Assembly (NCBI RefSeq): GCF_028069655.1
Contig: NZ_JAMCOS010000001.1
Span: forward strand, 3,626,001-3,690,000
Length of the DNA: 64,000 nt
From: Acidovorax sp. NCPPB 4044
Lineage (GTDB): Bacteria > Pseudomonadota > Gammaproteobacteria > Burkholderiales > Burkholderiaceae_C
Direction: 5' to 3'
Part shown: piece by piece, positions 29,346-64,000 of the stretch
How the letters are laid out: the number at the start of each line of letters is the position of its first letter
Numbering within the stretch: the first letter of the stretch is position 1
The notes under the pieces: model-generated
Database searches by the model: none
Seen by the model: the letters and a program-made list of their open reading frames with translations, nothing else
Told to the model about the DNA's origin: nothing
Made by a program: the position numbers and the translations under genes

Positions 29346-29361
29346 GTGCACACGTATGTAC
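29346..29361. repeat. Dispersed prophage palindrome, site 1 (GTGCACACGTATGTAC)
   Basis: 16 of 16 to the consensus GTRYAYACGYRTGYAC. Spans the umuD-umuC gap and the umuC ATG at 29356. See the other sites at 32072, 36923, 44758, 53722, 60510 and 63391. Confidence 0.75.
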
Positions 29362-30654
29362 GCCCTCGTCGACGGCAACAACTTTTATGTGAGCTGCGAG
29401 CGGGTCTTTCGCCCGAGCCTCCAAGACCGGCCAGTGGTGGTACTGAGCAATAACGATGGGTGCGCAATCGCGCGGTCAAACGAGGCCAAGGCACTAGGCA
29501 TCGCCATGGGAGCGCCGTGGTTCCAGATTCGACATCTTGAAGAGACTGCCGGACTTGTGGCCCTCTCGGCGAATTTCGTGCTTTATGGAGACATGAGCGA
29601 CAGGATGATGAGCCTGGCTGCAGGCATGGGACCGTCGCAAGAAATTTACAGCATCGACGAATCGTTCGTGGGCCTCCACGGCGTGGGTGGCGACTTGGTG
29701 CAGCGTGCTCACGCAGTTCGTGCGCGCATCCTCCAGTGGACGGGCATACCCTGCGGCATCGGTATTGGCAGTACCAAGACCCTTGCGAAGCTGGCCAATC
29801 ATGTCGCTAAGACTGCCGAGCGCAAGCCTGGAAGCTATCCGGCAGATCTGGCACAAGTGTGCAACCTTGCCAGCTTGCCCACCCAGGATCTAGAGGACGT
29901 GCTGCGCTGCACACCGGTAACCGACGTGTGGGGCGTCGGCCGCCGCATAGGTGCTCAGCTGATCGAAGCAGGTGTATGTAATGTGCTGGACCTTGTCCGG
30001 CTGGAGCCGGCCACCGTCCGCCGCCGCTGGAGTGTGGTGTTGGAGCGCACGGTGAGAGAGTTGCAAGGCATGCCATGTGTACAGCTGGAGGATGCCCCCG
30101 AACCCAAAAAACAGATCGCATGCACGCGGTCCTTCGGCAGCGCGGTGACAGACTTAGGGCCGCTGGTGCAAGCCGTAAGCGAGTTCGCAAGCCGCGCGGG
30201 CGAGAAGCTACGCGAGCAGCACAGCTTGGCCGGCCAACTACTCGTATTTGCCCACACGTCACCCTTCCGGCCCGGCCCACGCTTCAGCCGCACGTTGGTA
30301 GTCCCGCTACGTCGGCCCACGGCCGATACTCGCGAACTCGTTCAGGCTGCCATCGCTGGGGTACGGCGGATGTTCCGGCCCGGATACCAACTGAGCAAGG
30401 CCGGGGTGATGCTGCTGGACTTGCAAGCCGACACCGTGCACCAGCACGAACTAGAACTGGAGGAGGGAGCAGGACGCGACCGTGCTCGGTTGATGCACGC
30501 GCTCGATGCAATCAACGCGCGCTACGGCAAGGGCACCCTACACGTCGGCGCTACGGGCGCAACGGACCCGTCGCGCGATTGGGGCATGAAGCAGGCTCGA
30601 CGCACGCCCCGGTATACGACGCATTGGGCAGAAATGCCGATTGCCCGGGCATAG
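29356..30654 (+). CDS. umuC: UmuC-like Y-family DNA polymerase (catalytic subunit of Pol V)
   Basis: 432 aa. [20 protein letters not shown] holds the first catalytic aspartate (Asp6), and SIDESF near residue 101 the acidic pair of the second site. The [18 protein letters not shown] palm segment and the C-terminal little-finger and UmuC-type tail are all present, so the enzyme should be active in error-prone lesion bypass. It follows umuD in one SOS operon. One copy of the 16-bp prophage palindrome (29346-29361) covers its start region. Confidence 0.92.
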
Positions 30655-30679
30655 CGGGCATGGCCAATGCATCAAGGGG

Positions 30680-30886
30680 CTACGGTTGCCTGCCCTCGGG
30701 TGGGCCGGAATCGTCCAAGCCTCCTGCTATCGCCTGAGCATGTGCAGAGCGCTCCTCGAGCAGACGCTTGATGTCGTCCCACACCCCTGGCGGGATGCTC
30801 CGCGTACCAGCCAGCCATTCCCGGACGCGCCGCGCATCAGAGAGGCCCAGCGCCTGCCGCGCTCCTGAGAATCGAATGAAGTTTTG
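30680..30886 (-). pseudogene. Reading frame with HTH-like content but no standard start codon
   Basis: 68 open codons before the stop at 30680-30682, reading SGARQALGLSDARRVREWLA followed by IPPGVWDDIKRLLEERS. Composition and codon use are those of a real small DNA-binding phage protein. Upstream, the frame is closed by a TGA at 30887-30889, and no ATG, GTG or TTG is available before the conserved-looking part; only ATT or CTG could start it. It overlaps the 3' end of the gene at 30837-31043 in another frame. A frameshift or decay is the likely cause. Confidence 0.35.
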
Positions 30887-31043
30887 TCACGGCCTGGGGC
30901 GCAGCCCACCGGCAAGGGCCGTTGCCGGCGCAGGCTTCCTGCTCCCAACGGGCCAGGATTTGGACGTCGGTCCACCCCTTAGCGGTCAGGTAGGCGTAGT
31001 CGTCTGCGTCGTATTGAAGGTGGTTTTGAATTGCGGTGCTCAT
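30837..31043 (-). CDS. Small phage protein of unknown function
   Basis: 68 aa from the ATG at 31043 (MSTAIQNHLQYDADDYAYL). The stretch LTAKGWTDVQILARWEQEA looks like a helix-turn-helix or small helical fold, with two cysteines in ACAGNGPC. The last 20 residues overlap the HTH-like frame at 30680-30886 and may be out of frame relative to an ancestral protein. An in-frame ATG at 31070 would add nine residues. Function unknown. Confidence 0.5.
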   Translation of the reverse strand: MSTAIQNHLQYDADDYAYLTAKGWTDVQILARWEQEACAGNGPCRWAAPQAVTKLHSILRSAAGAGPL

Positions 31044-31136
31044 GGCTTGATTGACGCTCTGAAACGCCACATTTCCTAGCGATCAGCGAGTGCCCGACGG
31101 CAGCGTCGGCCACTCGCTATGGCTTGACTGCGCGCG

Positions 31137-31946
31137 TCAGAACAGGCCAGCGGGCTCGGAATCGCGGTCCCAGCTGTAGATGATCAACTCCGTCCGCTCT
31201 ACTCCCTTGCCGCCGCCAGCTACGTGGTAGGTAATAGGAAACGTCTCCATCTGCAGGCCTGTGAAGACCCTGCGGACGTCCGGATGGTCGTTGATGCTGA
31301 GTATGGCCTTACCCTTGAGTTGACGCATGGTGGCGGCCATGGCCTCGTACTGCGACCACTCAAAGGGGACGCCATAGCCCTCGGTCTGCCAGTACGGCGG
31401 GTCCAAATAAAACAGCGTGTGCGGCCGGTCATAGCGGCGCATGCACTCCTGCCAGTCGAGCCGCTCGATGTAGGCACCGTGTAGACGCATGTGAGCTGCG
31501 CTGAGCGATTCCTCCAGGCGCAGCAAATTGACCGTGGGTGCCGGCGCAGTGGTCGCGGTCCCCCACGTCTGTCCCTGCACCTTGCCGCCGAACGCCTGAT
31601 GTTGCAGATAGTAGAACCGCGCTGCGCGCTCGATGTCGGTAAGAGTCTCGGGCTTCGTTTCCTGCGCCCACTTGAACACCTGCCGCGAGGACAGCGCCCA
31701 CTTGAACTGACGTACGAATTCCTCAAGGTGGCGCTGCACGACACGGTACAGGTTGATCAGCTCGCCGTTGACGTCGTTGATGATTTCAACTTCCGCCGGT
31801 GGCCGCAAGAAGTACAGCGCGGCGCCGCCCGCAAAAACCTCTACGTAGCATTTGTGTGCTGGAAAACGCGGGATGATGATGTCGGCCAGACGGCGCTTGC
31901 CGCCCAGCCAGGGGATGATGGGGGTTGCCAATTGTGGGCTCCACAA
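31137..31946 (-). CDS. Phage DNA adenine methylase (D12 class)
   Basis: 269 aa N6-adenine methyltransferase of the Dam/D12 (alpha) type. The N-terminal SAM motif IIPWLGGKRRLADII (about residues 10-24), FAGGAALYF (motif I) and the catalytic DPPY in FYLDPPYWQTEGYG (near residue 180) are all present. No cognate nuclease is adjacent, so it is an orphan methylase, likely protecting phage DNA from host restriction or marking GATC-like sites. It sits between the lysis cassette and umuDC. Confidence 0.9.
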   Translation of the reverse strand: MWSPQLATPIIPWLGGKRRLADIIIPRFPAHKCYVEVFAGGAALYFLRPPAEVEIINDVNGELINLYRVVQRHLEEFVRQFKWALSSRQVFKWAQETKPETLTDIERAARFYYLQHQAFGGKVQGQTWGTATTAPAPTVNLLRLEESLSAAHMRLHGAYIERLDWQECMRRYDRPHTLFYLDPPYWQTEGYGVPFEWSQYEAMAATMRQLKGKAILSINDHPDVRRVFTGLQMETFPITYHVAGGGKGVERTELIIYSWDRDSEPAGLF

Positions 31947-32071
31947 GTTGATACACTCCGCCGGCCTGTACAGGTAGGCGGGGCCTTGGTTGGGCTCACA
32001 GGCATGCTCTGTGGGGTCGATGGCTTAGCCGGTGTTCGTAGCACCGACTGGGTCGCCTCGTTCTTTTTGCT

Positions 32072-32087
32072 GTGCACACGCGTGCAC
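32072..32087. repeat. Dispersed prophage palindrome, site 2 (GTGCACACGCGTGCAC)
   Basis: 16 of 16 to the consensus. Lies in non-coding DNA five bases beyond the stop of the 53-aa gene at 32092-32253. Confidence 0.75.
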
Positions 32088-32091
32088 AGGC

Positions 32092-32253
32092 TCAGTCGAT
32101 TCGTGGCAGCGGCTCCATGTCGTTGCGAGGCCCTGCTTCGCGGTCGACGCGCGCTTGAATCTCCTGCAGTTGCAGGCGCTCATCACGCCGCAGCCGTTGC
32201 TTCAGCCGGCGCGCCAGGCGCCGGCCTTCGCGTTTAGTTGGCGCGCCGGGCAT
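32092..32253 (-). CDS. Small basic phage protein overlapping Rz (53 aa)
   Basis: 53 aa found by direct translation. ATG at 32253 with GAGGA eight bases upstream; it overlaps the end of Rz by 20 bases. The sequence is strongly basic and helical (TKREGRRLARRLKQRLRRDE) with an acidic tail (EPLPRID). No membrane segment and no known family. Good ribosome site and lysis-cassette coupling support a real gene, possibly nucleic-acid binding. Confidence 0.55.
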   Translation of the reverse strand: MPGAPTKREGRRLARRLKQRLRRDERLQLQEIQARVDREAGPRNDMEPLPRID

Positions 32254-32773
32254 CGCGCCGGTCCTCAATGTCCAAAATCTGATTGACTTGGCTGGCCAGT
32301 TCGGCGTGCTGCGCGCGGCACGTCGCTATCTGGTCGGCTGTGCTTCGCTCGCTGGCATAGCCGGTTGCGTCAGCTCCAGATCCGGCAGCGGCCGAGGCCG
32401 CACCCGCAGGTTGGCCGGTAGCGGCTCGCAGGCCCAGACCGCCGGCGGGCTTGCCGATGTTGTTGAGCACGCGGACAGTGTCACCATCGAGGCACTGGCG
32501 ATCAGAAGAGAGCAGAGCGATTTGTGCACGGGCTTTTCCCAGTTGAGTGTTGAGGCCGGCCAGCTCGGCGGCATGCGTGCCGGCTGCGCGGTCGTTGAAG
32601 GCGCGCTGCTGGCGCGCGTCGGTTTCGCGCGCCTCGGTGGCCATGCGCTCGTCCTGCAAGCGCTTCGCCTCGATGGCGCCGTGGCGCCATTCCTGCGTGC
32701 GCCAGGCTGCCGAGCCGCCCAGGGCAGCGGCCGCGACCGCCACGGCCGCGTATGCGTAAAGACCGGTGAGCAC
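32234..32773 (-). CDS. Rz-like inner-membrane spanin subunit
   Basis: 179 aa from a GTG at 32773 that overlaps the endolysin stop (TAGTG). One N-terminal membrane segment (about residues 6-24) is followed by a long charged periplasmic coiled coil (EAKRLQDERMATEARETDAR...). The C-terminal half is interrupted by an alanine/glycine-rich linker and ends in a helical domain (RAQHAELASQVNQILDIEDRR). This is the i-spanin plan that, with Rz1, fuses inner and outer membranes in the last step of lysis. The Rz1 frame is nested inside. Confidence 0.8.
   Translation of the reverse strand: MLTGLYAYAAVAVAAAALGGSAAWRTQEWRHGAIEAKRLQDERMATEARETDARQQRAFNDRAAGTHAAELAGLNTQLGKARAQIALLSSDRQCLDGDTVRVLNNIGKPAGGLGLRAATGQPAGAASAAAGSGADATGYASERSTADQIATCRAQHAELASQVNQILDIEDRRDARRAN
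32326..32529 (-). CDS. Rz1-like outer-membrane lipoprotein spanin, nested in Rz
   Basis: 67 aa from a GTG at 32529, entirely inside Rz in another frame. VHKSLCSLLIASASMVTLSAC is a lipoprotein signal with lipobox LSAC, and the mature part is proline-rich (ANLRVRPRPLPDLELTQP), as in Rz1 o-spanins. An ATG at 32574 would add 15 polar residues. The nesting is the lambda Rz/Rz1 arrangement. Confidence 0.75.
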   Translation of the reverse strand: MHKSLCSLLIASASMVTLSACSTTSASPPAVWACEPLPANLRVRPRPLPDLELTQPAMPASEAQPTR

Positions 32774-33231
32774 TACTCGCCCTCCTGCACGCCCAGTTGC
32801 GTGCCCTTGCCCGTGATCGTGATCACGCGGTTTGACGGCTTAATCGGGATGCGCGTGGACACGTGCACCCAGGCCTTGCCGCCAATGTGCTCATAGATCA
32901 GCTGACCAATCCCTAGCACCGACACAACCGGCGCCAGCGAACGCGCGACCTGCGCCGGCTTGCCGAAGCTAGGCGCAATGAAGTCCGCCGCCATACCGGC
33001 CTGATGATCGCTGGTGCTGACACCACCCACCGCTTTGTTGACGGCTGGCGCGCGGTAGCCACTGGTGATGATCATCGGCACGCACAGGTGCTCGCGAATG
33101 CGTTGCAGCATGTCCGCCAGCTGCTGCAGCCGAACAACGGTTTCCGCCGGCGGCGTGTTGTCTAGGCCGAGGCGGGCCGCCGTGGTGCTGGCTGTCAGCT
33201 CCTCCAGCGTGAAATGGGTAGTGAGTTGCAT
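32773..33231 (-). CDS. Endolysin, peptidase M15 family (D-Ala-D-Ala carboxypeptidase type)
   Basis: 152 aa from the ATG at 33231. Zinc-site motifs are seen: SDHQAGMAADF (His and Asp ligands) and the late AWVHVS histidine. The N-terminus MQLTTHFTLEELTAS is typical of phage M15_3 enzymes, which cleave peptide cross-links of peptidoglycan. No signal peptide, so release depends on the holins just upstream. The gene overlaps Rz by one base. Confidence 0.85.
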   Translation of the reverse strand: MQLTTHFTLEELTASTTAARLGLDNTPPAETVVRLQQLADMLQRIREHLCVPMIITSGYRAPAVNKAVGGVSTSDHQAGMAADFIAPSFGKPAQVARSLAPVVSVLGIGQLIYEHIGGKAWVHVSTRIPIKPSNRVITITGKGTQLGVQEGE

Positions 33232-33235
33232 AGGT

Positions 33236-33517
33236 CTATCCCTCCTTGATACGGGTGCGAACAATCAAAGCGGCGAAGCCCAGCGCTATGCAGGCGTCGC
33301 CAAGGTCGGGCAATGGAAGGCCCAGGACGGGCCGCGCGACAGCACAGCCAGCGCCCAGCGCCAGCAGCAGCCAGGCAAGGGCCTTGAGCCATTCAGTGGT
33401 GCGCTCGCGCGGCCCAAGGCCACGCCGGCATGGCGCCGTGCGCTCCAATTTGTTAAGGGACTCTGCGAGCACGACAACGCCGCAGGCCCAATGGATGACC
33501 AGGAGTGCGGCTGTCAT
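33236..33517 (-). CDS. Holin-like small membrane protein
   Basis: 93 aa. Hydrophobic segments at about 3-20, 43-62 and 73-87, a charged loop (CRRGLGPRERTTEW) and a basic C-terminus (RTRIKEG), as in class I holins or their partners. It overlaps the upstream holin-like gene by four bases (ATGA at 33514-33517) and lies just before the endolysin. Confidence 0.65.
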   Translation of the reverse strand: MTAALLVIHWACGVVVLAESLNKLERTAPCRRGLGPRERTTEWLKALAWLLLALGAGCAVARPVLGLPLPDLGDACIALGFAALIVRTRIKEG

Positions 33518-33936
33518 GGCGTACCTCCCATGGATGGCGGCGCTGGTGGCGCCGCTGCCTGGCCGCTGAAGCGGCGAATGGCAGATGACAGGATCTGCTG
33601 CGCGCCGCCGCCCACCGCAAAGGCGCTCCCGAGCAGCAAAGACTCAGGCACGGCCGCGATCAGCATGGCGAGGGGCGTGAGGTAGCCCGCCGTCAAACTG
33701 CTGGCGAATGCCACAGCGATACGGCGGACGGTTGTTCGTGCCAGCTCGCGCCAGGTGTCGCTCGATCCAGGCACGCTGTCGAGCAGGATGATCGCCACCA
33801 GCGCCCCCGCGAAACCAGCGATAAGCAGATCCACGCGCAACCCGAGTGGGACGCCAAAGACGGTCAACGCCGACGTGGAGACGGCAGCAGTGGCCACCGT
33901 GATGATGCCTGCAGCGCTGGAGGTGGGCTCAGGCAT
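33514..33936 (-). CDS. Putative phage holin or holin-associated membrane protein
   Basis: 140 aa with an N-terminal hydrophobic segment (about residues 8-28), a second at 36-54 and a third at about 85-108, and a proline-rich tail (AAAPPAPPSMGGTP). First gene of the lysis cassette after a strong terminator. Size and place fit a holin, but no diagnostic motif is visible; either this or the next gene may be the actual hole former. Confidence 0.55.
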   Translation of the reverse strand: MPEPTSSAAGIITVATAAVSTSALTVFGVPLGLRVDLLIAGFAGALVAIILLDSVPGSSDTWRELARTTVRRIAVAFASSLTAGYLTPLAMLIAAVPESLLLGSAFAVGGGAQQILSSAIRRFSGQAAAPPAPPSMGGTP

Positions 33937-33953
33937 AGGGAGGCCCTCCAGGC

Positions 33954-33978
33954 GTAAAAAAACCCGCAGGAGCGGGCT
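33954..33978 (-). terminator. Rho-independent terminator before the lysis cassette
   Basis: On the minus strand AGCCCGC (33978 down) pairs with GCGGGTT over a short loop and is followed by a run of seven T. It lies between the SGNH gene and the holin gene, so the lysis genes need readthrough or their own promoter. Confidence 0.75.
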
Positions 33979-33999
33979 CAGAAATGCAAGTGCGCATGG

Positions 34000-34683
34000 T
34001 CATGGACAAGCCCTCTCAATCGCGGCGACAAGCAGCAGCGCAAGGCGGTCGCTGGCCTCCTGCGTACGGTGAACGTTGTCACGCACGTCGGTCGGGCCGC
34101 GGTAGTCCTGGCCCCACCCTGCATGCTGCAGGCCCAGCTCGGCGGCCACGGCCCGCGTCACGGCATCGAGCTGCCGGCGGCGCTCGATGCGCTCGAGCGT
34201 GAACAAGTCCGCCACGGGCAGGTCCACCAGACCCGTCAGCACGGGCAGCCGGCCCTCTGCCTGGATCACCTGGATGACCTGGCGCAGATCGGCTTCGAAG
34301 CGCTTGGGCGTGCGCATCTCCAGTGCATCGTTGACGCCCAGCCCGAGCACCACCACGCGCCCCTGCCGGCGCACGTCCGCAAAGCGCGGCTGCGGGCCCA
34401 GTGGAAACGCATCGGCCGGCGCCCCTGGCCAGGGCTCCCGATAGCCGACCACCAGCGCGTCAAGATCCAGCCCGGTCGCGGAGTGGTCCTGCACGGTCCA
34501 GCCAGGCCGCGCGGCCTGCAGCGACTGCACCAGGGAGACGGGCAAGCCCGGCGAGCGCGCGATGCTGTCCGCGAAGATGTCCACGCTGACCGGCTCGGGG
34601 GGCTGCGCCTGGCTCGCGCCGTCGCTCCCGCCACCGCAGCCAGTGAGCAGGATGACCAGGGCGAAGATCAAGGCCAGCGTCAT
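34000..34683 (-). CDS. SGNH/GDSL-type lipoprotein hydrolase in the tail module
   Basis: 227 aa. The N-terminus is a lipoprotein signal with lipobox LLTGC (residues 12-16) followed by a glycine/serine linker. The hydrolase block has FADSIA (nucleophile serine), LGLGVNDAL (Gly-Asn) and a final DNVHRT with the Asp-X-X-His pair. So a complete Ser-His-Asp esterase triad is likely. Its place next to tail fibre genes suggests surface-polysaccharide deacetylation, either in the virion or, as a lipoprotein, on the lysogen surface to change phage receptors. It overlaps the next upstream gene by four bases. Confidence 0.75.
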   Translation of the reverse strand: MTLALIFALVILLTGCGGGSDGASQAQPPEPVSVDIFADSIARSPGLPVSLVQSLQAARPGWTVQDHSATGLDLDALVVGYREPWPGAPADAFPLGPQPRFADVRRQGRVVVLGLGVNDALEMRTPKRFEADLRQVIQVIQAEGRLPVLTGLVDLPVADLFTLERIERRRQLDAVTRAVAAELGLQHAGWGQDYRGPTDVRDNVHRTQEASDRLALLLVAAIERACP

Positions 34684-35102: not shown

Positions 35103-35107
35103 GTAGG

Positions 35108-35392: not shown

Positions 35393-35691
35393 CAGTACAC
35401 CTCCTCGATCTGCCACGACACCGTGCAACCCGGATTGGCCCCGGGCACGGCGGTGCGCGTCACCTCAAGCGTCGTTGCGTTGAGAAACCGGATGCGGCCA
35501 GCGCCGACGTACTCCCCGGTGTAAGCATTGGTATCGCGAATGCCAAGCAGCACGAGGCGGCACTTGGAGATGTCCACCGATGAAATCGTGATGGACCAAA
35601 CGCGCGTGCTGTTGGCGCCGCTGCTGTTGGTGCCGCGCTGGACCACCTTGACGCCCGAGCCGCGAAGCGCGGTGTAGCTTTGCTGGGCCAT
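35392..35691 (-). CDS. Small beta-rich tail protein, paralogue-like neighbour
   Basis: 99 aa. ATG at 35691 overlaps the stop of the large fibre gene. Beta pattern WSITISSVDISKCRLVLLGI, then RIRFLNATTLEVTRT, ending SWQIEEVY, parallel to the ending SWIVIELW of the following gene. Probably another fibre tip or decoration protein. Confidence 0.5.
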   Translation of the reverse strand: MAQQSYTALRGSGVKVVQRGTNSSGANSTRVWSITISSVDISKCRLVLLGIRDTNAYTGEYVGAGRIRFLNATTLEVTRTAVPGANPGCTVSWQIEEVY

Positions 35692-37070
35692 CAGACGACC
35701 CCCCAGGTGTTGGTGGAAGCGTTGAAAAAGAAGTCGTAGCGCGTGTTGGCCCGGTTGAGCAGCACCGTGTCCCCAGCGGTGCCGAGCGAGAAGCCATTGC
35801 CCGCCACGGCGATGTCGCTGACGGCCACCGTGTTGTCGGCCCGGGCATTGGTGACGACCGCGAACGTGTCGCCGTCCTGCGGCGTGGTCGGGATGCTCCA
35901 CGAGGCGGCCGAGCCGCTGAGCGCCGCGGCGATGACGTTGAGACGGTTGAGGCCGCGTGTGCTGTCCCCGTACATGTGGCCGCCGCTGACAGTGAGCGTG
36001 GACGTAGGCAGGACGCGCGCAGGCTTCCAGCGGCCCCAGGTGGCCCCGGTCTTGCGCCGTACGAAGTGCAGGCCGGACGCGGCGCCACTCGCGGCGCCTG
36101 GTGTTGCGGTCTGCGCCGCCCGCGCGGCAGCGCCGGCGCCGAAGCCCAGTGTCTCCACCACCCAATCGATGGTGTCGCCCCAGCCGGCGCTCGCGCTGTT
36201 GGCGGTCACGCACGGGAGGTGCGCGGCAGCGAAGGCGCTGTTGGCCGCACTGATGATGGTCACGGTGTTGAGCGGAGCGAGGTCCGCGTCGGCATAGGTG
36301 CCGGCCGCGATGGTCTGCACCCCTGCTGCCGCGCCGCTGGCCGCCAGGCCGAGCTGCCAGCTCGCCAGCGTGCCCGCGCCGCTGGTGGCGTTGATGGCAA
36401 GCGTCAGCTGGCCCGCAGCCCTGTCATGGGCCGTCACCGGGCCGGCCATCGAGATGGACGGATCGGCCGTGCTGGCCGCGCTGACGTACTGCCCGATGAC
36501 GAAGGATTTACCGGCCTCGATGGCAAAGGTCCGCGCGCCCAGGCCAATGGTCAGCGAGGTCGCGCTTGTCGCCGTGAAGCCGAACGCGGCCACGCTCACG
36601 GCGGTGTCGCGCGCGGCCTCCGCGCCGCTGCGTGCGTTGTTGGCAAGCGTGACCTGCTGGCCGGCCGCAGACAGTGCCGCCTCGGCGCCGATGCGGGCAG
36701 TGTTTGCCAGCCCGGCTTGCGTGGTGGCCGTGCCGGCCGCGCTCTCCGCGCCCTGGCGCGCGTTAGTGGCAAGCCCCGCTTGCGTGGTTGCCGTAGTGGC
36801 CGAGTTTCCGGCGGTGTTGCGGTAGCCCAGCGCCAAGACCGCCTCGTCGTATGCCCGATCACGGGCGGCCTCTGCATCGGCCGCACGCTCGTTTGCGAAC
36901 GATGCGTTGGAATAGGTGATCTGTGCATACGCATGCAATTCCGGGGCGACCGTGGATCGCCACCGGCTTGCCCAGTCGTAGGCCATGGTGTTGTAAGTGC
37001 CCAGTGCTCGATAGGACAGGGCTGGGAATTCCGGTATCGCGGATTGCGCGGGTACGGGTACTAATGGCAT
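35691..37070 (-). CDS. Tail fibre protein
   Basis: 459 aa. A short N-terminal attachment part, then an alanine-rich repeat region (about residues 60-150) with recurring units of the form TATTQAGLATNARQGAESA, typical of trimeric coiled fibre shafts, then beta-rich blocks and a C-terminal domain with GTAGDTVLLNRANTRYDFFF and NTWGVV at the end, as in phage side or central fibres. It should carry host recognition. One copy of the 16-bp palindrome (36923-36938) lies in the N-terminal coding region. Confidence 0.7.
   Translation of the reverse strand: MPLVPVPAQSAIPEFPALSYRALGTYNTMAYDWASRWRSTVAPELHAYAQITYSNASFANERAADAEAARDRAYDEAVLALGYRNTAGNSATTATTQAGLATNARQGAESAAGTATTQAGLANTARIGAEAALSAAGQQVTLANNARSGAEAARDTAVSVAAFGFTATSATSLTIGLGARTFAIEAGKSFVIGQYVSAASTADPSISMAGPVTAHDRAAGQLTLAINATSGAGTLASWQLGLAASGAAAGVQTIAAGTYADADLAPLNTVTIISAANSAFAAAHLPCVTANSASAGWGDTIDWVVETLGFGAGAAARAAQTATPGAASGAASGLHFVRRKTGATWGRWKPARVLPTSTLTVSGGHMYGDSTRGLNRLNVIAAALSGSAASWSIPTTPQDGDTFAVVTNARADNTVAVSDIAVAGNGFSLGTAGDTVLLNRANTRYDFFFNASTNTWGVV
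36923..36938. repeat. Dispersed prophage palindrome, site 3 (GTGCATACGCATGCAA)
   Basis: 15 of 16 to the consensus. Inside the tail fibre gene; on the minus strand it encodes LHAYAQ. Confidence 0.6.
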
Positions 37071-37071: not shown

Positions 37072-38007
37072 TCAAACGGCCCCTCTCACTTTGACTGTCA
37101 ACCTTGCTTCTTTGGCGTTCTCCGCCCGAACCTTGCCCGTAACCAAACCGACCCCCGACAGGTATTCATAGCCAGGGGTATCGGTGGCAGACACGGACAC
37201 AGGCACATCCAAAATCCGCTTAAGTACGGCTGTTGCATAGACCGCTTGGGACGCGTTGATCACGCAGCTGAACGACAGGTCGATAGCGGCATAGCGCTTC
37301 TGGATGCGCCACGTACCATCGGGGAACGACTCGATGTAGCTATAGCTCTTGGGCTCAGCCTCGGCGCCATACTCCGTCCCTCCGCTACCCGTCCCCGCCA
37401 GGTCAAGCCACTCCCCGATGTGAATGGTTCCCACCCCGACGGTTGTTGTCGCGGCGCCGGTGAGCGTCACAGTCACTTCCGCAGTGGGGGACAAAGGGAT
37501 GTCGCGAAGCTCCAACTGATCGCGCTTGCCCAATGGCTCGAACAGCAATTCCCACAAGCCCAGGGCTTGCTCCCACAGTTCGACATCGACTGCCTTGGTG
37601 ATCGCCCCACCAGGTGCATCGCGCACCGTGATGGCGGCCCGATCGGACTGCAGACCATCCAGGCGCACGTCACGGAAAAATCCGGGCTGCATCACATAGG
37701 TAAGCGCTCCGGTTGCCTGCGCAGGCGTCGACGAATAGTCGTCAAAGGGCGCAAATCGATTGCTCGGAGCCTTGTACTTCCAATATTCCGGATCGCGCTC
37801 GGGCGGAATATTGCGGCCGTTGGCCACCTGTACACACGTGTAGATCGCGTGATTGCTCACGCGCTCCGCCTGAAGTACATAGTTGCCCCCGGCCACCCAA
37901 GCCGCTTCGCCACGCGCAGGATCTGGCTCAGGCACGGTAGTGCCTGGCTTGACCATGTCGGCGGTGATCTGGAGCGGCACCAGCACGCTCACGCTTGCGT
38001 ATCTCAT
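37072..38007 (-). CDS. Phage tail/baseplate protein
   Basis: 311 aa, first gene after the tape measure in transcription order. N-terminal VSNHAIYTCVQVANGRNIPP and DPEYWKY are patterns I associate with the carbohydrate-binding-like segment of phage distal tail proteins. The rest is beta-rich (AVYATAVLKRILDVPVSVS). Lambda order would place distal tail, tip or hub proteins here. A specific role is not assignable. Confidence 0.6.
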   Translation of the reverse strand: MRYASVSVLVPLQITADMVKPGTTVPEPDPARGEAAWVAGGNYVLQAERVSNHAIYTCVQVANGRNIPPERDPEYWKYKAPSNRFAPFDDYSSTPAQATGALTYVMQPGFFRDVRLDGLQSDRAAITVRDAPGGAITKAVDVELWEQALGLWELLFEPLGKRDQLELRDIPLSPTAEVTVTLTGAATTTVGVGTIHIGEWLDLAGTGSGGTEYGAEAEPKSYSYIESFPDGTWRIQKRYAAIDLSFSCVINASQAVYATAVLKRILDVPVSVSATDTPGYEYLSGVGLVTGKVRAENAKEARLTVKVRGAV

Positions 38008-44590: not shown

Positions 44591-44830
44591 CTACGCAACT
44601 GGCTCGGCTGCAGGCATGGCAACGGGTGGTGCCAGGGTCCGCTTTCCGGTTTCCGGATCGCGCAAGTAGGTGCCACCGATGCCCGCGAACTCATCGCGAG
44701 GCCGCCGCAGCGTGGGCAGGTGGTGGGCCGGCTTGGTCGGCCTCGTTGCAGCGGTTTGTGCATACGTGTGCACAGACTCGTCGGCCGCAACTGCGGCCGC
44801 CTCCGCAGGATCTGCGGTGCGTTTGTTCAT
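44591..44830 (-). CDS. Small phage protein of unknown function
   Basis: 79 aa from the ATG at 44830. Polar, alanine- and threonine-rich, no hydrophobic core apart from the segment FAGIGGTYLRDPETGKRTL. It lies between tail terminator-like and tail tube genes. A full-score 16-bp palindrome (44758-44773) makes up codons SVHTYA in its N-terminal part, so part of the sequence may be shaped by DNA-level selection. Confidence 0.5.
   Translation of the reverse strand: MNKRTADPAEAAAVAADESVHTYAQTAATRPTKPAHHLPTLRRPRDEFAGIGGTYLRDPETGKRTLAPPVAMPAAEPVA
44758..44773. repeat. Dispersed prophage palindrome, site 4 (GTGCATACGTGTGCAC)
   Basis: 16 of 16 to the consensus. Inside the small gene at 44591-44830; on the minus strand it encodes VHTYA. 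Confidence 0.75.
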
Positions 44831-53656: not shown

Positions 53657-53984
53657 CGTCACCCCCAGCTGCGGCGGGCGCGCTACCGGCATCCCGCGAC
53701 CGCCAAGCGCTCGCAGGCCAGATGCATACGTGTGCACAGCCCATGATCACCATAAAGTTGGCCAGCTCCTGCAAGGTGTCCTGCGGTAGACCCGCCGGCG
53801 TGCCCACCACGTGCCCCGCCTCGATGGCATAAAAGCAACCGCGTTCACCGCGCAGGCCACGGCGCACATAGGCATATGCGTCGTTACCAATGTGCTTCGC
53901 CCGATCCTCGATGAGCGCCCACGTGTATGGCATGCGGGTCTTGATGACATCGATCTGCCGCGCCACTTCCTCTTTGCTCGCCAT
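53643..53984 (-). CDS. Small phage protein of unknown function
   Basis: 113 aa from the ATG at 53984, with AGGAG seven bases upstream. MASKEEVARQIDVIKTRMPYTWALIEDRAKHIGNDAYAYVRRGLRGE is a helical N-terminal part, followed by a small mixed domain with GTPAGLPQDTLQELANFMVI. A copy of the prophage palindrome (53722-53737) encodes AHVCI in it. No known family. Confidence 0.55.
   Translation of the reverse strand: MASKEEVARQIDVIKTRMPYTWALIEDRAKHIGNDAYAYVRRGLRGERGCFYAIEAGHVVGTPAGLPQDTLQELANFMVIMGCAHVCIWPASAWRSRDAGSAPAAAGGDDGAN
53722..53737. repeat. Dispersed prophage palindrome, site 5 (ATGCATACGTGTGCAC)
   Basis: 15 of 16 to the consensus. Inside the gene at 53643-53984; on the minus strand its codons read AHVCI. 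A weaker related sequence, CACACGCGTGC, lies at 54210-54220. Confidence 0.7.
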
Positions 53985-57921: not shown

Positions 57922-58176
57922 AGCAGATACCCCCTCGCGTTGTTACTGACAGCCGACGGGCACGCTGCGAGACTGCGGCCCACATGAAAAAAAAGCACCC
58001 CACACGCCACCATGCGAAGAGTCGCGCGCCTGCACGCGCGCGACACACCATCAGGGAGGAGTCCACGAAAACGCCCGGCGGCATGGCTGCGGGCGTGTGG
58101 GGATGCGAAAAAGAAGCGTGCATCCCTCTGACATACGATGAGAGTCCTGACACAACCATCGAGAGGGAAGGCAACA

Positions 58177-58428: not shown

Positions 58429-58436
58429 GCCGGACA

Positions 58437-59055: not shown

Positions 59056-59096
59056 GCGCCAGCAGTTCGCCCATCTCGTATTGCCAGAGGAGCGCG

Positions 59097-59363
59097 TCAG
59101 CCATGGGGCGCCTCCGTGACAGGACCAGACGTGCCCGAGGTTTGGGCTGCAAGCTCGGGCCAGATGAGATGCCAGTCGTCTGGCCGCAGGTCTCGGCGCG
59201 TGACGAGTCCGCCGGTTGCCCGCTCAATAGCTGAGCAGTCCTCAGCCTTTGGAGTCGTTCCTCGTTTTCGCCAGTTGCTGATGAGCGGCTGAGACACGCC
59301 TATAGCTTTGGCCAGCTTGCCAACACCGCCCATCCGAGAGATTGCCGTATCAAGTGCAGTCAT
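59097..59363 (-). CDS. Cro-like repressor (YdaS-type helix-turn-helix)
   Basis: 88 aa. MTALDTAISRMGGVGKLAKAIGVSQPLISNWRKRGTTPKAEDCSAIE is a compact Cro/YdaS-type helix-turn-helix. It is divergent from the CI-like gene, 50 bp apart, with two operators between, so it is the lytic repressor of the switch and the first gene of the leftward early unit. Confidence 0.82.
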   Translation of the reverse strand: MTALDTAISRMGGVGKLAKAIGVSQPLISNWRKRGTTPKAEDCSAIERATGGLVTRRDLRPDDWHLIWPELAAQTSGTSGPVTEAPHG

Positions 59364-59372
59364 GCCTCAATC

Positions 59373-59421
59373 ATCACTCAAGTGATTAATAAAAGCAACC
59401 CAAAGTTATTCACATGAGTGA
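59373..59421. promoter_or_regulatory. Cro/CI operator pair
   Basis: Two TCAC-N4-GTGA sites: TCACTCAAGTGA (59374-59385, within the 14-bp near-palindrome 59373-59386) and TCACATGAGTGA (59410-59421). The second covers the CI start codon (59414). Their 36-bp centre spacing suits cooperative repressor binding. The sequence between is AT-rich and should hold both promoters. Confidence 0.65.
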
Positions 59422-60121
59422 TGCAATCCCCGGCATGGAAACGCAAGGTGAACGGTTAGCTCGACTGAGGATGCAGAAGGGCCTTAGTCAGGCTAAGCTC
59501 GCCTCTCTTGTTGGGTTCAGTGGTCAAGGCGCCATTGGCAACATAGAGCGGGGTACACGGGGCTACGGTGCCAGCATCATTGACATTGCGAAAGTGCTCG
59601 GGACCACTCCTGAGTACCTCCGGATGGAGGAGCCTGCCGTTGGGGCAGTTCCAGCTGATGCTGCAGCGGCGCCGAACATAGCGCCCGGACCAAACATCAA
59701 AGGAAGAGGCCGCTATCCACTCATTTCCTGGGTGCAGGCGGGGGAGTGGACTGACATTTGCGATAGCTTCCAACCAGGGGACGCCGAAGAGTGGCCGACC
59801 TCGCATCACAATCTTGGGGAATGCGGCTTCATGCTCCGTGTTCAGGGGGACTCCATGACCGCGCCCCCAGGGTCACCGTTCAGTTTTCCGCCTGGCGTTC
59901 TGCTCCATGTGAACCCCGAGAAAGACCCGACGCCTGGGCAGTTCGTGATCGTCCGGAGGAGCGGCGAGAACGTGGCGACCTTCAAGAGGCTCGCCATGGT
60001 CGATGGAGAACTGTTCCTCGAAGCCATTAACCCCGATTGGCCCCGGCGCTACCTACCACTGAAAGAGGGAGACGCCTTCTGCGGGGTTGTCGTGGACGCG
60101 TCCTTTGGAAACTTGCCGTAG
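59414..60121 (+). CDS. CI-like lysogeny repressor (HTH plus S24 peptidase)
   Basis: 235 aa. The N-terminal helix-turn-helix (about residues 10-70: GERLARLRMQKGLSQAKLASLVG) is followed by a linker and the S24/LexA-like domain with cleavage site Ala-Gly in WVQAGEW (about 107-108), catalytic Ser in VQGDSM and Lys in VATFKRL. So it is cleavable upon SOS, linking prophage induction to the same signal that turns on the prophage umuDC. A terminator follows. Confidence 0.9.
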   Translation: MSDAIPGMETQGERLARLRMQKGLSQAKLASLVGFSGQGAIGNIERGTRGYGASIIDIAKVLGTTPEYLRMEEPAVGAVPADAAAAPNIAPGPNIKGRGRYPLISWVQAGEWTDICDSFQPGDAEEWPTSHHNLGECGFMLRVQGDSMTAPPGSPFSFPPGVLLHVNPEKDPTPGQFVIVRRSGENVATFKRLAMVDGELFLEAINPDWPRRYLPLKEGDAFCGVVVDASFGNLP

Positions 60122-60140
60122 CTTAGAGAACGGCAGCAGC

Positions 60141-60166
60141 AGCCCGCCCCTGCGGCGGGCTTTTTT
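60141..60166 (+). terminator. Rho-independent terminator of the CI gene
   Basis: GCCCGCC (60142-60148), 5-base loop, GGCGGGC (60154-60160), then TTTTTT. Located 20 bp after the CI stop. Confidence 0.85.
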
Positions 60167-60287
60167 GTGGACGCACCGCAGGCAGAAGGCAAAGGCCCGC
60201 GAGCGAAATCAATAACTTTAGTGTTGATTTAGAAAATAACTTATGTGATGATTTGCCCACGCGCCATCCTGGCGTGCAGGAGCAAAC

Positions 60288-60488
60288 ATGCCGTTCACCC
60301 AGCGCCAGTACCGCGCAACTCTCATCCCTGACCACGTCGAGCCCGAGGACGTCGAAGACCTCGCCTACGCCGGGCACCTCCCCACAAAGCACCTGACTGC
60401 GCCCAGCGCCGAGCAGGCCATGCGCATGGCCGCACAGCAATCCGGGCTGCGCGTGCTCAAGACCGAACGTATCGGCGAGGTGGCTTGA
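60288..60488 (+). CDS. Small early phage protein
   Basis: 66 aa with AGGAG six bases before the ATG at 60288. MPFTQRQYRATLIPDHVEPEDVEDLAYAGHLPTKHLTAPSAEQAMRMAAQQSGLRVL is a compact alpha/beta pattern with no known family. The AT-rich stretch upstream (60205-60255, with two AATAACTT repeats) probably holds its promoter. It starts the rightward early operon. Confidence 0.55.
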   Translation: MPFTQRQYRATLIPDHVEPEDVEDLAYAGHLPTKHLTAPSAEQAMRMAAQQSGLRVLKTERIGEVA

Positions 60489-60509
60489 TGTTGGCCGCCG
60501 CAACACCCA

Positions 60510-60525
60510 GTGCACACGTGTGCAC
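60510..60525. repeat. Dispersed prophage palindrome, site 6 (GTGCACACGTGTGCAC)
   Basis: 16 of 16 and a perfect palindrome, the best copy. It lies in non-coding DNA between the converging genes 60288-60488 and 60545-60949. Confidence 0.8.
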
Positions 60526-60544
60526 ACCGCAGGCAACCGCACGC

Positions 60545-60949
60545 CTACTGCGAACGCACGTTCGCGGACGAGTAATCGATGCCCAGGCAGTCGATGGCGG
60601 CGTCGTACACCTTACTGTTTGCGCAGAGCAGCAGCACGGCGGCACCTGGCGGCGCCTTCGACAGCACCTGGCGAACGCGCTCTTTCGCGCCGGCGACGTT
60701 TGCCACCCCGGCCAGGATCACCGGGCTATCGGGGTAGTTGAGCTGCTTGTGCCGCCCAAGGCGGTCAACCACCAACTGCCCGACCTTGCCCACGCGGACG
60801 CTCGCCACATCGCTCCCTTGCGCGACGCCTTCGGCAATGCCCACTATCACCCCCTTGTCATCCACGAGCGTATCGAACACCGGGACCAAGGCATCGGCGC
60901 CAAGCTCTGCAACTGGCTCGGGCTTCAAAAACGTGCTGATGACTCGCAT
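60545..60949 (-). CDS. Minus-strand phage protein inside the rightward early region
   Basis: 134 aa. ATG at 60949 with GGAGG eight bases upstream. Codon use is normal for this genome and the protein has alternating hydrophobic strands and helices (FDTLVDDKGVIVGIAEGVAQG, PGAAVLLLCANSKVYDAAID), unlike the histidine-rich frame opposite. No family recognised. It runs against the surrounding plus-strand genes, so it may act or be expressed in a different phase. Confidence 0.55.
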   Translation of the reverse strand: MRVISTFLKPEPVAELGADALVPVFDTLVDDKGVIVGIAEGVAQGSDVASVRVGKVGQLVVDRLGRHKQLNYPDSPVILAGVANVAGAKERVRQVLSKAPPGAAVLLLCANSKVYDAAIDCLGIDYSSANVRSQ

Positions 60950-61023
60950 GCTGCGCCCCTCCAGGCGGCTGATTTGTCAGGGTTGAAGAACGTCATTGTC
61001 ATGCCGCAAGAAGGCGGTGCAGC

Positions 61024-61479
61024 ATGAACGCCACGACCACTATCACCTTCAAGGTGGACGAGGGCAATCTGCCCAACTACACCGACGAGTACCTGGCAGC
61101 GCTCTGGCACATCGCCCAAGCCAACCCCGCGCCCTTCGGTGATAGCGCAGCCTGCGCGTTTGCAGAGCATGTGGGGCGCGAGATCATCAGCCGCTGGCTT
61201 GGCAGCGTGCCACCTGAACTGTGGTTGCACCAGGGTCGTCATGCCGCCAAGGCGAGCGATGCGGCTAGGACACTGCGTGACGATCTGCTGCGCGACACCG
61301 TTGCGCCCGGGCAATTCATCACCCTTGCGGAAGCAATGCTGCGCCTTGGCTTTGAAGAAGGTGGAGCAGTGCAGGAGTCAACCACTCGCGATGCGCTGAT
61401 TCGCCTAGGCTTTACTGCCGGTCGGGAGCCGCACGGCCTTCGTCGTCGCGGTTGGATCGCGCCAGGGGGTGCAGCATGA
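61024..61479 (+). CDS. Early phage protein of unknown function
   Basis: 151 aa. MNATTTITFKVDEGNLPNYTDEYLAALWHIAQANPAPFGD, then EHVGREIISRWLGSVPPELW, with a C-terminal helix-turn-helix-like part (ITLAEAMLRLGFEEGGAVQEST, RDALIRLGFTAGREPHG). Perhaps DNA-binding. It overlaps the next gene by four bases (ATGA at 61476-61479). Confidence 0.6.
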   Translation: MNATTTITFKVDEGNLPNYTDEYLAALWHIAQANPAPFGDSAACAFAEHVGREIISRWLGSVPPELWLHQGRHAAKASDAARTLRDDLLRDTVAPGQFITLAEAMLRLGFEEGGAVQESTTRDALIRLGFTAGREPHGLRRRGWIAPGGAA

Positions 61480-61859
61480 ACCGCGCCGCCCACGAGGCGC
61501 AAACGCGCCTGCTGGAGGTGCTCGGCCTCTCGGACCTGACAGCCATCACTGCGGTGGACATTGCACTCAGACCCGGCACCGCACCGACAGTGCGCATCGA
61601 GCAACTGCTGCTTCGCACTTTTGGAACCACCGAACGGATCTTCCGCCTGGAACCAAAAGCGACAACGCCAGCCCCGCAGGTTGCCTACGACCTTGATGCA
61701 GCGTGCGCCGCCGCCCTGGAGCGCGTAAGAGCCGGCATCCGTCGCGACTGCGATGCAGCGCATCAGGCTGTGCGCGACGGCTTTTCAGCCATCCGCCGCC
61801 AGCGCGCTGCTGCTCGCCATTCCGATTGCCGCCTTCGCGCCATGCGCGGCTTCTTGTGA
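61476..61859 (+). CDS. Early phage protein of unknown function
   Basis: 127 aa from the ATG at 61476, coupled to the preceding gene. The N-terminal part MNRAAHEAQTRLLEVLGLSDLTAITAVDIALRPG suggests a beta-strand after two helices; the C-terminal half is basic and helical (ALERVRAGIRRDCDAAHQ). No known family. Confidence 0.55.
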   Translation: MNRAAHEAQTRLLEVLGLSDLTAITAVDIALRPGTAPTVRIEQLLLRTFGTTERIFRLEPKATTPAPQVAYDLDAACAAALERVRAGIRRDCDAAHQAVRDGFSAIRRQRAAARHSDCRLRAMRGFL

Positions 61860-61868
61860 GGACCAACG

Positions 61869-62033
61869 ATGCACCTCCATCACAGCACGCCTTCACAGCG
61901 CCACTCGCTCTACCTTGTCAAGGTGCCGGGCCACAAGCCTTACACCGGGATCTACGCCGGTTCAGCGGCGGCCATTGCCCACGCCATCGAAATCTTCGGC
62001 GCCATGGGCGCCACTGCGAGGCCCATCAAATGA
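61869..62033 (+). CDS. Small phage protein (54 aa)
   Basis: 54 aa found by translation of the third frame; ATG at 61869, nine bases after the previous stop. Reads SLYLVKVPGHKPYTGIYAGS then AAAIAHAIEIFGAMG, a compact beta-beta-alpha pattern that looks like a real small protein. Its stop overlaps the next ATG (ATGA at 62030-62033). Function unknown. Confidence 0.5.
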   Translation: MHLHHSTPSQRHSLYLVKVPGHKPYTGIYAGSAAAIAHAIEIFGAMGATARPIK

Positions 62034-62203
62034 GCGCGCCCATCCAAATATTCGGCCCATACCGCGCCCCTCGCCTGCGCCGTGCACGGCGCGCCCTGCT
62101 GCGCGCGTTGCCCGTCCTGGGCTGGCTGCTGGCCCTGATCGTGGCCTACGCGCTGCCCCCCTTCCTTGCCGGCGTGCTGCTGGCGCATGGCCTCGTGCCT
62201 TAA
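62030..62203 (+). CDS. Small single-pass membrane protein (57 aa)
   Basis: 57 aa. A basic N-terminal part (PYRAPRLRRARRALLRAL) is followed by one long hydrophobic segment (about residues 27-54, GWLLALIVAYALPPFLAGVLL). Coupled to the previous gene by ATGA. It may be a superinfection-exclusion or membrane-anchoring peptide; no family known. Confidence 0.5.
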   Translation: MSAPIQIFGPYRAPRLRRARRALLRALPVLGWLLALIVAYALPPFLAGVLLAHGLVP

Positions 62204-62219
62204 CCCGAGTCCCCACACC

Positions 62220-62525
62220 ATGGCAACCATCACCATCCACCTCACCGACACGCCCGGCGGCGGCGTCACGGTGCACACCACCGCCGGCCAGCCCATCCCT
62301 GGCGCCAGGCTCACGCCAGCGCAGGCGCTGGCCACCGACCTGCTCAACGAGTGCGGCCACCGTGCGAGCGATATGCGCTACTGGCAGGGCCAGGACCAGG
62401 CCATGGCCCTGATGCATGAGCTGATCGACCCCGAGGGGTTCGGCCACTCGGTCACCCACGAAGTCCGCCGGCGCGCTTCGCAAGTGCTGGGCCGGCACGC
62501 TCAACGCAACGCGGTGGAGGGCTGA
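62220..62525 (+). CDS. Early phage protein of unknown function
   Basis: 101 aa from the ATG at 62220. MATITIHLTDTPGGGVTVHTTAGQPIPGARLTPAQALATDLLNECG: beta-hairpin N-terminus, then helices (QAMALMHELIDPEGFGHSV). Proteins of this type often precede ParB-like genes in phages of this group, as I recall. It lies 3 bp before the ParB-like gene. Confidence 0.55.
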   Translation: MATITIHLTDTPGGGVTVHTTAGQPIPGARLTPAQALATDLLNECGHRASDMRYWQGQDQAMALMHELIDPEGFGHSVTHEVRRRASQVLGRHAQRNAVEG

Positions 62526-62528
62526 GCC

Positions 62529-64000
62529 ATGGCAACCGATCAGCACGACCAAGTTACCGCGCAGATCGCCACCCTGCCGCCGCGCATGGGCATGGTGCGC
62601 GTCGATCTCATCGAGGAGAGTCTGACCAATCCTCGAAAGCACTTCGACTCGGCGAAGCTGCAGGAGCTGGCGGACAGCATCGCCGCCACTGGTGTGCACC
62701 AGCCCATCCTGCTGCGGCCGCTGCCCGGCAGTCGCGTGGCCGAGACTAGCCTGGAGCCGCTTCCCCCCACAGCAGCCTGGCCGTTGACGCGGAGCAAGCG
62801 CGAACTGCGGCCGGTTTACGAACTGGTGGCTGGCGCCCGACGCCTGCGTGCGTGCCGCATGGCCAAAGTGGCCGAGGTGCCAGCCATGATCCGTGACATG
62901 ACAGACGCCGAAGCACTGGAGGTTCAGGTTATCGAGAACCTGCAGCGCGAAGACGTCACACCGCTGGAAGAAGCTGAAGGCTACGACGTGCTGATGCGCT
63001 CGGGCGATCTCAACGCCGACCAAGTAGCCGCCAAGATCGGCAAGAGCCGCAGTTACGTGTACGGACGGCTCAAGGTGCTGGACCTGTGCACAACTGGCCG
63101 GCAAGCGTTGCGCGAGGGCAAGATTGACTTCAGCAAAGCGCTGTTAGCCGCTCGCATCCCGCACGAGAAGCTGCAAATTGAGGCCGTCAAATGGATGACG
63201 CGCGAGGGTTGGGACGGTGAACCGCGCAGCTATCGCGAATGCGCGCGGCACGTCCAATCGGAATACATGCTGGAACTCAAGGGCGCGCAATTTCCCATCA
63301 AGGACGCCACCCTGGTACCGGCTGCTGGCGCCTGTACGGAGTGCCGCAAGCGCACCGGCGCCGACCGCGACCTGTTCAGCGACGTTCCGAGTGCAGACGT
63401 GTGTACAGACACCAAATGCTTCCACGCAAAAGCCCAGGCGCACACCGACCGCCTGACGGCTCAGGCCCGAGAGAAAGGGCAAACCGTCATCGCCGGCAAG
63501 GAGGCCGAAGAACTGTTCGGCGGCAACAGCTGGAACGCCAAGATCAAGGGCTATCGCCGCTTGGACGTGGTGGATGACAGCCCGACCAATGAGCCCCTCC
63601 GCAAGATCATCGGCAAGCAGATGAAGGCCGAGGGCATCGTGCCCACCAAGGTGGAAAACCCTCGCAAGCGCGGCGAGCTGATCGATGCACTGCCGAACGA
63701 AGTTGCGCTGCGCCTGCTCAAGGCCGTGGAGGGCCAGGCCCAGGCCGCGCAGCAGGTGACAAAGGAAGCCAAGGCCTTCGCGGACGAGAAGAAAGCCAAG
63801 GCGGAAGCAAAGGCAAAAGCCCAGTATGAACAGGGCTGGCGCACCGAGCTGATGCACAGCGCGTGGGTACGCCTGAGCACTTCGATGGACCGGCCGGGCG
63901 ACTATATCCACGCGTTTGACCTCGATGTTCACCGCTACGTGGCGTTGCGCCAGGTCAAGAGCCTGAGTAGTGACGATGCTCTGGCCGTTGCTGGTGCGCT
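62529..64000 (+). CDS. ParB/RepB/Spo0J-family protein (3' end beyond window)
   Basis: 490 residues visible, open at the window edge. The N-terminal ParB domain has NPRKHFDSAKLQELADSI (about residues 34-51), GVHQPILLRPL and the GARRLRA box, then EVQVIENLQREDVTPLEEAEGY. The helix-turn-helix follows (ADQVAAKIGKSRSYVYGRLK, about 163-182), then a cysteine-rich segment (CTECRKR...VCTDTKC, about 270-299) and a lysine/alanine-rich helical linker (about 405-435). The fold is that of a CTPase DNA clamp. No ParA gene is in view. It may organise or segregate phage DNA; the dispersed palindromes in this prophage are candidate sites. Confidence 0.85.
   Translation, partial: MATDQHDQVTAQIATLPPRMGMVRVDLIEESLTNPRKHFDSAKLQELADSIAATGVHQPILLRPLPGSRVAETSLEPLPPTAAWPLTRSKRELRPVYELVAGARRLRACRMAKVAEVPAMIRDMTDAEALEVQVIENLQREDVTPLEEAEGYDVLMRSGDLNADQVAAKIGKSRSYVYGRLKVLDLCTTGRQALREGKIDFSKALLAARIPHEKLQIEAVKWMTREGWDGEPRSYRECARHVQSEYMLELKGAQFPIKDATLVPAAGACTECRKRTGADRDLFSDVPSADVCTDTKCFHAKAQAHTDRLTAQAREKGQTVIAGKEAEELFGGNSWNAKIKGYRRLDVVDDSPTNEPLRKIIGKQMKAEGIVPTKVENPRKRGELIDALPNEVALRLLKAVEGQAQAAQQVTKEAKAFADEKKAKAEAKAKAQYEQGWRTELMHSAWVRLSTSMDRPGDYIHAFDLDVHRYVALRQVKSLSSDDALAVAGA
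63391..63406. repeat. Dispersed prophage palindrome, site 7 (GTGCAGACGTGTGTAC)
   Basis: 15 of 16 to the consensus. Inside the ParB-like gene, encoding ADVCTD of its cysteine-rich segment. Confidence 0.6.

Follow-up and report, generated by a model that had tools for sequence, protein, structure and literature searches.

Seven copies of a 16-bp palindrome are dispersed over a prophage in the window, a stretch of 64,000 nucleotides from Acidovorax sp. NCPPB 4044 (contig NZ_JAMCOS010000001.1, positions 3,626,001 to 3,690,000). These palindromes are probably parS-like loading sites for the prophage's own ParB-type clamp, an orphan that apparently comes without ParA. The protein of 826 amino acids is encoded by a parB-like gene at 62529..65009 on the plus strand (L009:3529-6009), and it combines ParB_N and HTH_ParB domains with four invariant cysteines and an SH3/KOW-like C-terminus. 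The original prediction offered partition, clamp loading and phage silencing as possible roles, of which clamp loading is the one we prefer. Its proposal that the palindromes are dispersed binding sites of the ParB-like protein is well supported at sequence level, as four lines of evidence link the sites to ParB: linkage across contigs, contigs in which ParB is the sole shared gene, a site held at codon level within parB, and covariation of the motif with ParB residue 201.

Distribution of the palindrome in the prophage and in related phages

All seven sites lie where they had been predicted, with 0 mismatches on the better strand at 29346, 32072, 44758 and 60510, and 1 mismatch at 36923, 53722 and 63391. 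Of the weaker matches also predicted, the one at 37830 is within 2 mismatches, while those at 31479 and 54206 exceed 2. Compared with 100 dinucleotide shuffles, in which the mean was 1.2 strand-matches and the largest count 5, the real sequence has 15 at up to 2 mismatches. A scan of the host genome (5,319,379 bases, at most 1 mismatch) gave C1:4428516 as the sole extra site, and the reversed-pattern control gave 1. At equal stringency the prophage of about 38.7 kb thus holds 7 palindromes and the remaining 5.28 Mb holds 1; within this genome the palindromes are almost exclusive to the prophage.

The refined motif is GTGCANACGTNTGCAC, where N is mostly C or G, and the consensus of the wider family, (G/a)TGCA[C/G/t]ACGT[G/C/a]TGCA(C/t), is tighter than the one first described. 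Sites occur in a C-type form, for example GTGCACACGTGTGCAC, and in a G-type form, GTGCAGACGTCTGCAC. Acidovorax phage Aval and Variovorax phage VarioGold came out nearest to the prophage in the collection, and their ParBs are 71% and 47% identical to the window ParB in the main stretch of the alignment. The palindrome is present in both phages, with the C form in Aval and chiefly the G form in VarioGold, at places that partly correspond to those of the prophage. The available parts of the VarioGold paper do not mention it (PMC9658991), and in the literature within reach, which excludes most subscription papers, we found neither 16-mer and no report of dispersed sites for a phage ParB.

Relatives of the window ParB were the best 80 of 235 from IMG/VR and the best 80 of 160 from GTDB species genomes, and 25 of the latter 80 were used, as large-ParB relatives. 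Across 108 ParB loci (1.85 Mb, some near-duplicates included), the counts are 120 exact sites, 113 with 1 mismatch and 56 with 2, against 0, 2 and 30 for the reversed pattern. The 50 whole ParB-positive contigs hold 278 sites at up to 2 mismatches (35 for the reversed pattern), and every one of them has at least one site, 2 having exactly one. A motif-blind search for the largest palindrome cluster recovered the motif in 40 of 107 loci and missed it in 67, Aval and VarioGold included. By a second de novo palindrome score, other palindromes rank first in VarioGold, G087 and G097, and in G097 the motif falls outside the top five. The same de novo scoring returned only GC-rich palindromes from Gordonia phage Nyceirae, a single phage with a different ParB.

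Conservation of the sites at the same places in related phages was borne out in part, as many stations recur across 23 phages: in parB, near an early-operon gene start, around gp18/p49, near the right end, and either at two positions within the terminase gene (terL) or directly behind the major capsid gene. The other sites are particular to single phages.

Linkage, shared genes and codon usage tie the sites to ParB

An exact-motif scan of IMG/VR returned at least 120 stretches, compared with 49 in all for the reversed control. Among the matches listed, there were 66 new contigs once those already known to carry ParB were excluded, and 50 of them were tested. This ParB is encoded in 33 of these 50 motif contigs, whereas a ParB match was found in 3 of 49 reversed-control contigs, one of the three being the large ParB (counts compared by Fisher's test). 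A control through the phage backbone is suggestive only with regard to this linkage. Here, 15 of 41 contigs found by their terminase were tested, the remainder being short or already in the ParB set. Five of the 15 carry ParB and have 7, 2, 1, 1 and 3 sites. Among the 10 without ParB, there are 5, 3, 5 and 2 sites in G150, G151, G154 and G161, which are 20-32 kb long and may be fragments, and there are none in the more distant G156-G159 (30-37 kb) or in G162-G163 (17 kb).

When 23 ParB-positive motif contigs (the first 40 kb of longer ones) were compared with 77 proteins of Aval and VarioGold, ParB was the sole queried gene in common in G073, G081, G087 and G097. The examined stretches of these contigs hold 2, 1, 7 and 4 sites, respectively. 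The sites in G073 and G081 could be there by chance, and the argument from the sole shared gene rests on G087 and G097; relaxing the cut-off gives G087 a weak match to CII as well.

The site within parB (site 7, GTGCAGACGTGTGTAC, 63391..63406) covers the codons of a conserved S-A-D-V-C-T in the four-cysteine region. Among the 95 of 108 parB genes that fit the pattern, the site spans codons for S/G/R-A-D-V-C-T. Its first codon is AGT, GGT or CGT, so that the amino acid varies while GT is constant, and an artefact of protein coding was rejected on this ground. The alanine codon at the site is GCA in 68 of 82 genes (53 of 65 without near-duplicates) against 15.6% GCA across the same genes. Likewise, serine is encoded by AGT in 46 of 55 cases against 8%, and glycine by GGT in 24 of 31 against 9.9%. 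The suggestion that selection acts on DNA rather than on protein therefore holds for the parB site at the level of codons.

Covariation of ParB residue 201 with the motif

The available text of a study of Caulobacter ParB describes contacts to parS via R173 and nearby residues, with positions 173, 179, 184 and 201 setting the preference for parS or the Noc-binding site (NBS) (PMC7383237). Aligned to 6t1f, the window ParB keeps R173 and has R, D and S at the positions of Caulobacter T179, A184 and G201. Residue 201 in our numbering (F201 in the window ParB) immediately precedes the equivalent of G201 and thus lies beside a known parS-specificity residue.

Residue 201 tends to be aromatic where base 6 of the motif is C, and small where it is G. 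Among columns 20-299 it ranks top by F statistic in 52 ParBs less than 85% identical, the set that remained of 70 after removal of near-duplicates. ParBs with an aromatic residue (n = 21) have a mean C fraction of 0.70 and G fraction of 0.15, while those with a small residue (n = 29) have 0.16 and 0.68 (p 2e-7, uncorrected for descent); two ParBs with other residues fall outside this comparison. The set also omits 9 of 23 whole contigs, in which the ORF (open reading frame) filter found no ParB, and phages with fewer than 4 half-sites outside parB. The contrast holds at matched identity, where close pairs across the two classes rest mostly on L027, which is in favor, and L032, which is contrary.

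As a separate observation, a subclade of six loci (L017, L021, L023, L024, L047 and L048) has a different recognition helix (GKSRTYVFNVMK or near) and often asymmetric sites that join a C half to a G half (GTGCACACGTCTGCAC).

A ParB-like protein without a visible ParA

The window ParB matches ParB_N (PF02195, E 2.2e-21) and HTH_ParB (PF17762, E 8.5e-15), and its fold matches solved ParB-parS complexes. The nucleotide-binding boxes GxRR and ENxxR are kept, as G102, R105, E136, N137 and R140 are invariant in 83 aligned ParBs. Residue 103 is E in 68 of these, A in 14 including the window ParB, and V in 1.

The prophage has no match to ParA by PF13614, the ParA-type family searched, and neither do the 42 ParB-positive contigs searched, some of which may be fragments. 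This agrees with the earlier remark that the ParB-like protein has no visible ParA. In addition, the ParA-binding motif (L/F/I)G(K/R)G(L/F/I) is found in 0 of 83 aligned ParBs. These results bear on classical partition, in which the sites would serve an extrachromosomal phase with the help of a ParA from the host. The sites do have the length and central ACGT of parS, and the host has ParA-like and ParB-like genes side by side near C1:4.75 Mb. However, the prophage is integrated, and its integrase adjoins an att-like repeat at tRNA-Arg(CCU). With the searches for PF13614 and the ParA-binding motif empty, ParA-based partition was rejected and we consider it very improbable here. Separately, the host genome encodes a further ParB_N protein (open frame of 699 amino acids) at G000:C1:1550748-1550981. 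According to the accessible part of a paper on the ParB-CTPase fold, orphan, multidomain proteins of this kind are common in phages and prophages, with their role there open (PMC12704722).

A more serious alternative is that the ParB clamp is mainly a transcription regulator acting from the dispersed sites, by long-range repression like KorB of RK2 or by anti-silencing like VirB. It shares the binding step with the explanation we favor and differs in purpose. KorB and Noc are among the sequence and structure matches of the window ParB, its C-terminus resembles KOW domains of DSIF and NusG, and one recurrent station is at or near an early-operon gene start. On the other side, a KOW-like tail could be aligned in only 24 of 83 ParBs, and several of the recurrent stations are intragenic, in parB and terL, or follow immediately on the major capsid gene. 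We therefore regard regulation as the main purpose as rather unlikely, though it is the strongest of the alternatives.

Immunity region and proposed timing

The CI-type repressor gene (HTH and S24 peptidase) is located at 59414..60121 on the plus strand. Divergent from it on the minus strand is an ORF of 88 amino acids (59097..59363), a probable Cro by position only. Upstream of cI, a putative CI operator of the AATMACTTNNGTGWTGATT class, deduced from repeats, occupies 59369..59387 on the minus strand. Behind cI there follow, on the plus strand, a terminator-like hairpin with a T tail (60141..60161; the scan count is not above shuffles), two more putative CI operators at 60211 and 60235 (60211..60253) upstream of the parB operon, and then the ORF at 60288, which would be the first gene of that operon. 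The ORF at 60485-61027 is probably the second, and near its start lies dispersed site 6 (GTGCACACGTGTGCAC, 60510..60525), a perfect palindrome. Judged by position, CI would repress the parB operon and ParB would act after induction. Early lytic timing is proposed because the putative CI operators are located upstream of the parB operon.

The same repeats bear on phage silencing. If the dispersed sites were operators of CI, they would resemble the stoperators of mycobacteriophage L5, which are characteristically dispersed in a temperate phage. However, the AATMACTTNNGTGWTGATT consensus of the putative CI operators differs from the dispersed palindrome and occurs at three places, all in the immunity region; at up to 3 mismatches it matches nowhere else in the prophage or in the host DNA of the window. 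CI operators were rejected as the identity of the dispersed sites on this account. Moreover, the prophage, Aval and VarioGold share the motif but have dissimilar CIs that align weakly, and relatives of the CI of Aval or VarioGold are present in 4 of 23 motif contigs. Silencing through CI is consequently unlikely in the extreme.

Observations that weigh against the proposed reading

Several results count against the proposed role of ParB at these sites. No site within 1 mismatch is found in 17 of 108 ParB loci, and the sites in 23 whole phages are not spaced significantly more evenly than random sites would be (p about 0.1). With regard to covariation, L029 and L032 are exceptions to the residue-201 rule, other ParB columns also correlate with base 6, as expected from relatedness, and the variance explained by column 154 (0.589) is slightly larger than that of column 201 (0.571). 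The window ParB and 13 of its 82 aligned relatives have GARR instead of GERR, and the available text on Myxococcus xanthus ParB calls the E93A variant hydrolysis-defective (PMC9178275); CTP hydrolysis by the GARR variants may possibly be slow or absent. As for timing, a simple scan of the region found no sigma-70-like promoter, and its 3 terminator-like sites compare with a shuffle mean of 2.7, so that early lytic timing is weakly supported.

The most direct difficulty comes from the 17 of 50 motif contigs without detectable ParB, many of which are short and may be fragments. Searches with PF02195 and PF17762 in all 17, and with custom ParB and HTH models in 6, found none. Two long contigs are strongly enriched in the motif, G051 (76.8 kb, 50% GC, L381-L384) with 11 sites and G060 (36.7 kb, 39.5% GC, L385-L386) with 6 sites within 1 mismatch, and in both the motif class is the top de novo palindrome. 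In G068 (L387-L388), a phage of related backbone that carries an integrase, 5 sites are present and again no ParB was detected. G051 and G060 clearly need another explanation. Either ParB in G068 was lost or is elsewhere and the motif in G051 and G060 is read by another protein, or ParB is not the sole reader.

Such contigs are what would be expected if the palindrome were read by another phage or host protein, with ParB merely a frequent neighbor. Of the 11 sites in G051, 6 are placed upstream of a minus-strand ORF start, at a distance of 10-160 bases (ORFs called mechanically). Pfam searches of 6 ORFs of G051 and 4 of G060 returned RecA, a helicase and a dUTPase, and a PHROGs search of 10 G060 ORFs named no sequence-specific DNA binder. 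Against a different reader stand the covariation with ParB residue 201 and the four contigs in which ParB is the sole queried shared gene, and the nearly site-free host chromosome argues against a host factor. As a general account of the sites, another binder is therefore improbable.

Setting of the sites in the prophage

The prophage extends from an 18-bp attL-like repeat (28691..28708) to a 94%-identical partner (L009:8395-8412) at the start of tRNA-Arg(CCU). As this partner is outside the window, the prophage extends past the window end, and parB likewise. The gene content is that of an HK97-type siphovirus with terminase, portal, major head protein, tape measure and endolysin genes, together with genes for a Dam-type methylase, UmuD-like and UmuC-type proteins, a primase/helicase, CII and CI.

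Site 1 (GTGCACACGTATGTAC, 29346..29361) is located in the gap between the genes for the UmuD-like protein and the UmuC-type polymerase and overlaps the start codon of the latter. These two genes (28896-30654) are found directly inside the left end of the prophage, with the dispersed site at their junction. Site 2 (GTGCACACGCGTGCAC, 32072..32087) is at the 5' end of the Dam-type methylase match, site 3 (GTGCATACGCATGCAA, 36923..36938) within the minus-strand ORF 35691-37070 of the late region, and site 4 (GTGCATACGTGTGCAC, 44758..44773) among the tail genes between the tape measure and gp28 matches. Site 5 (ATGCATACGTGTGCAC, 53722..53737) sits at the 3' end of the gp18/p49 homologue, where a Q-like ORF starts, and this station is reused in several relatives.

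Proposed mechanism and relation to known systems

By analogy with ParB, Noc, KorB and VirB, ParB dimers would bind at a site and close into clamps loaded with CTP; they would then slide away and build up on the neighboring phage DNA. Starting from about 4-8 sites in about 39 kb, they could coat much of the phage genome, and host DNA, being almost site-free, would stay uncoated. Judging from gene position, this coating might take place early in lytic growth. As no ParA was found, the complex would not be a segregation motor of the usual kind, and its purpose would most likely be a phage-specific nucleoprotein coat that organizes, marks or protects replicating phage DNA. In some members, the KOW-like tail hints that the protein touches nucleic acid or the machinery of transcription.

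The system resembles chromosomal ParB-parS of Caulobacter and Bacillus in its ParB_N and HTH_ParB fold, in the conserved ENxxR and GxxR boxes, and in a 16-bp palindrome with a central ACGT (CACGTG in the C-type motif). Canonical parS is TGTTTCACGTGAAACA, and the outer half-site of the phage palindrome is different. The phage system also differs in that no ParA or ParA-binding motif was found and the sites are dispersed over the replicon, and the phage ParB has an additional four-cysteine region, with an SH3/KOW-like tail present in some members. By the tests made, it would not be a member of the ParABS partition systems, and it would be like Noc and KorB in its clamp and dispersed sites. Noc of Bacillus is an orphan ParB paralogue that has dispersed 16-bp sites (NBS) and no ParA, as in the phage system, but Noc acts on the host chromosome and the membrane, while the sites here are on the phage genome. 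KorB, which binds the OB sites of RK2, would be comparable as a CTP clamp of the ParB family whose sites are distributed over a mobile replicon; RK2, however, is a plasmid that has IncC (ParA) and KorA as partners. SopB of N15 is a ParB-type protein with sites dispersed in a phage genome. While N15 is a linear plasmid prophage with SopA, the prophage described here is integrated between att-like repeats at tRNA-Arg, has an integrase and gave no match to ParA by PF13614. The stoperators of mycobacteriophage L5 are many short dispersed sites in a temperate phage, and they are bound by the repressor, whereas the putative CI operators here differ in sequence from the dispersed sites.

Taken further, and only tentatively, the system might be a motor-less, partition-type complex that spans the whole phage genome in the lytic cycle. 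Self-encoded CTP clamps loaded from dispersed sites would coat only phage DNA and provide a self-mark that organizes or protects replicating genomes. The same site class in the ParB-less G051 and G060 would then reflect convergence of different binders on one phage-wide address code.

The accessible part of the ParB-CTPase-fold paper gives no DNA sites for the phage orphans (PMC12704722), and the present analysis identifies probable ones. Besides these sites, one family of orphan phage ParBs thereby gains a rule that relates a residue to a base, and its timing can be tentatively predicted. The family also offers a natural series of ParB HTH/site pairs for studies of specificity, and the role of ParB in a phage without ParA becomes testable.

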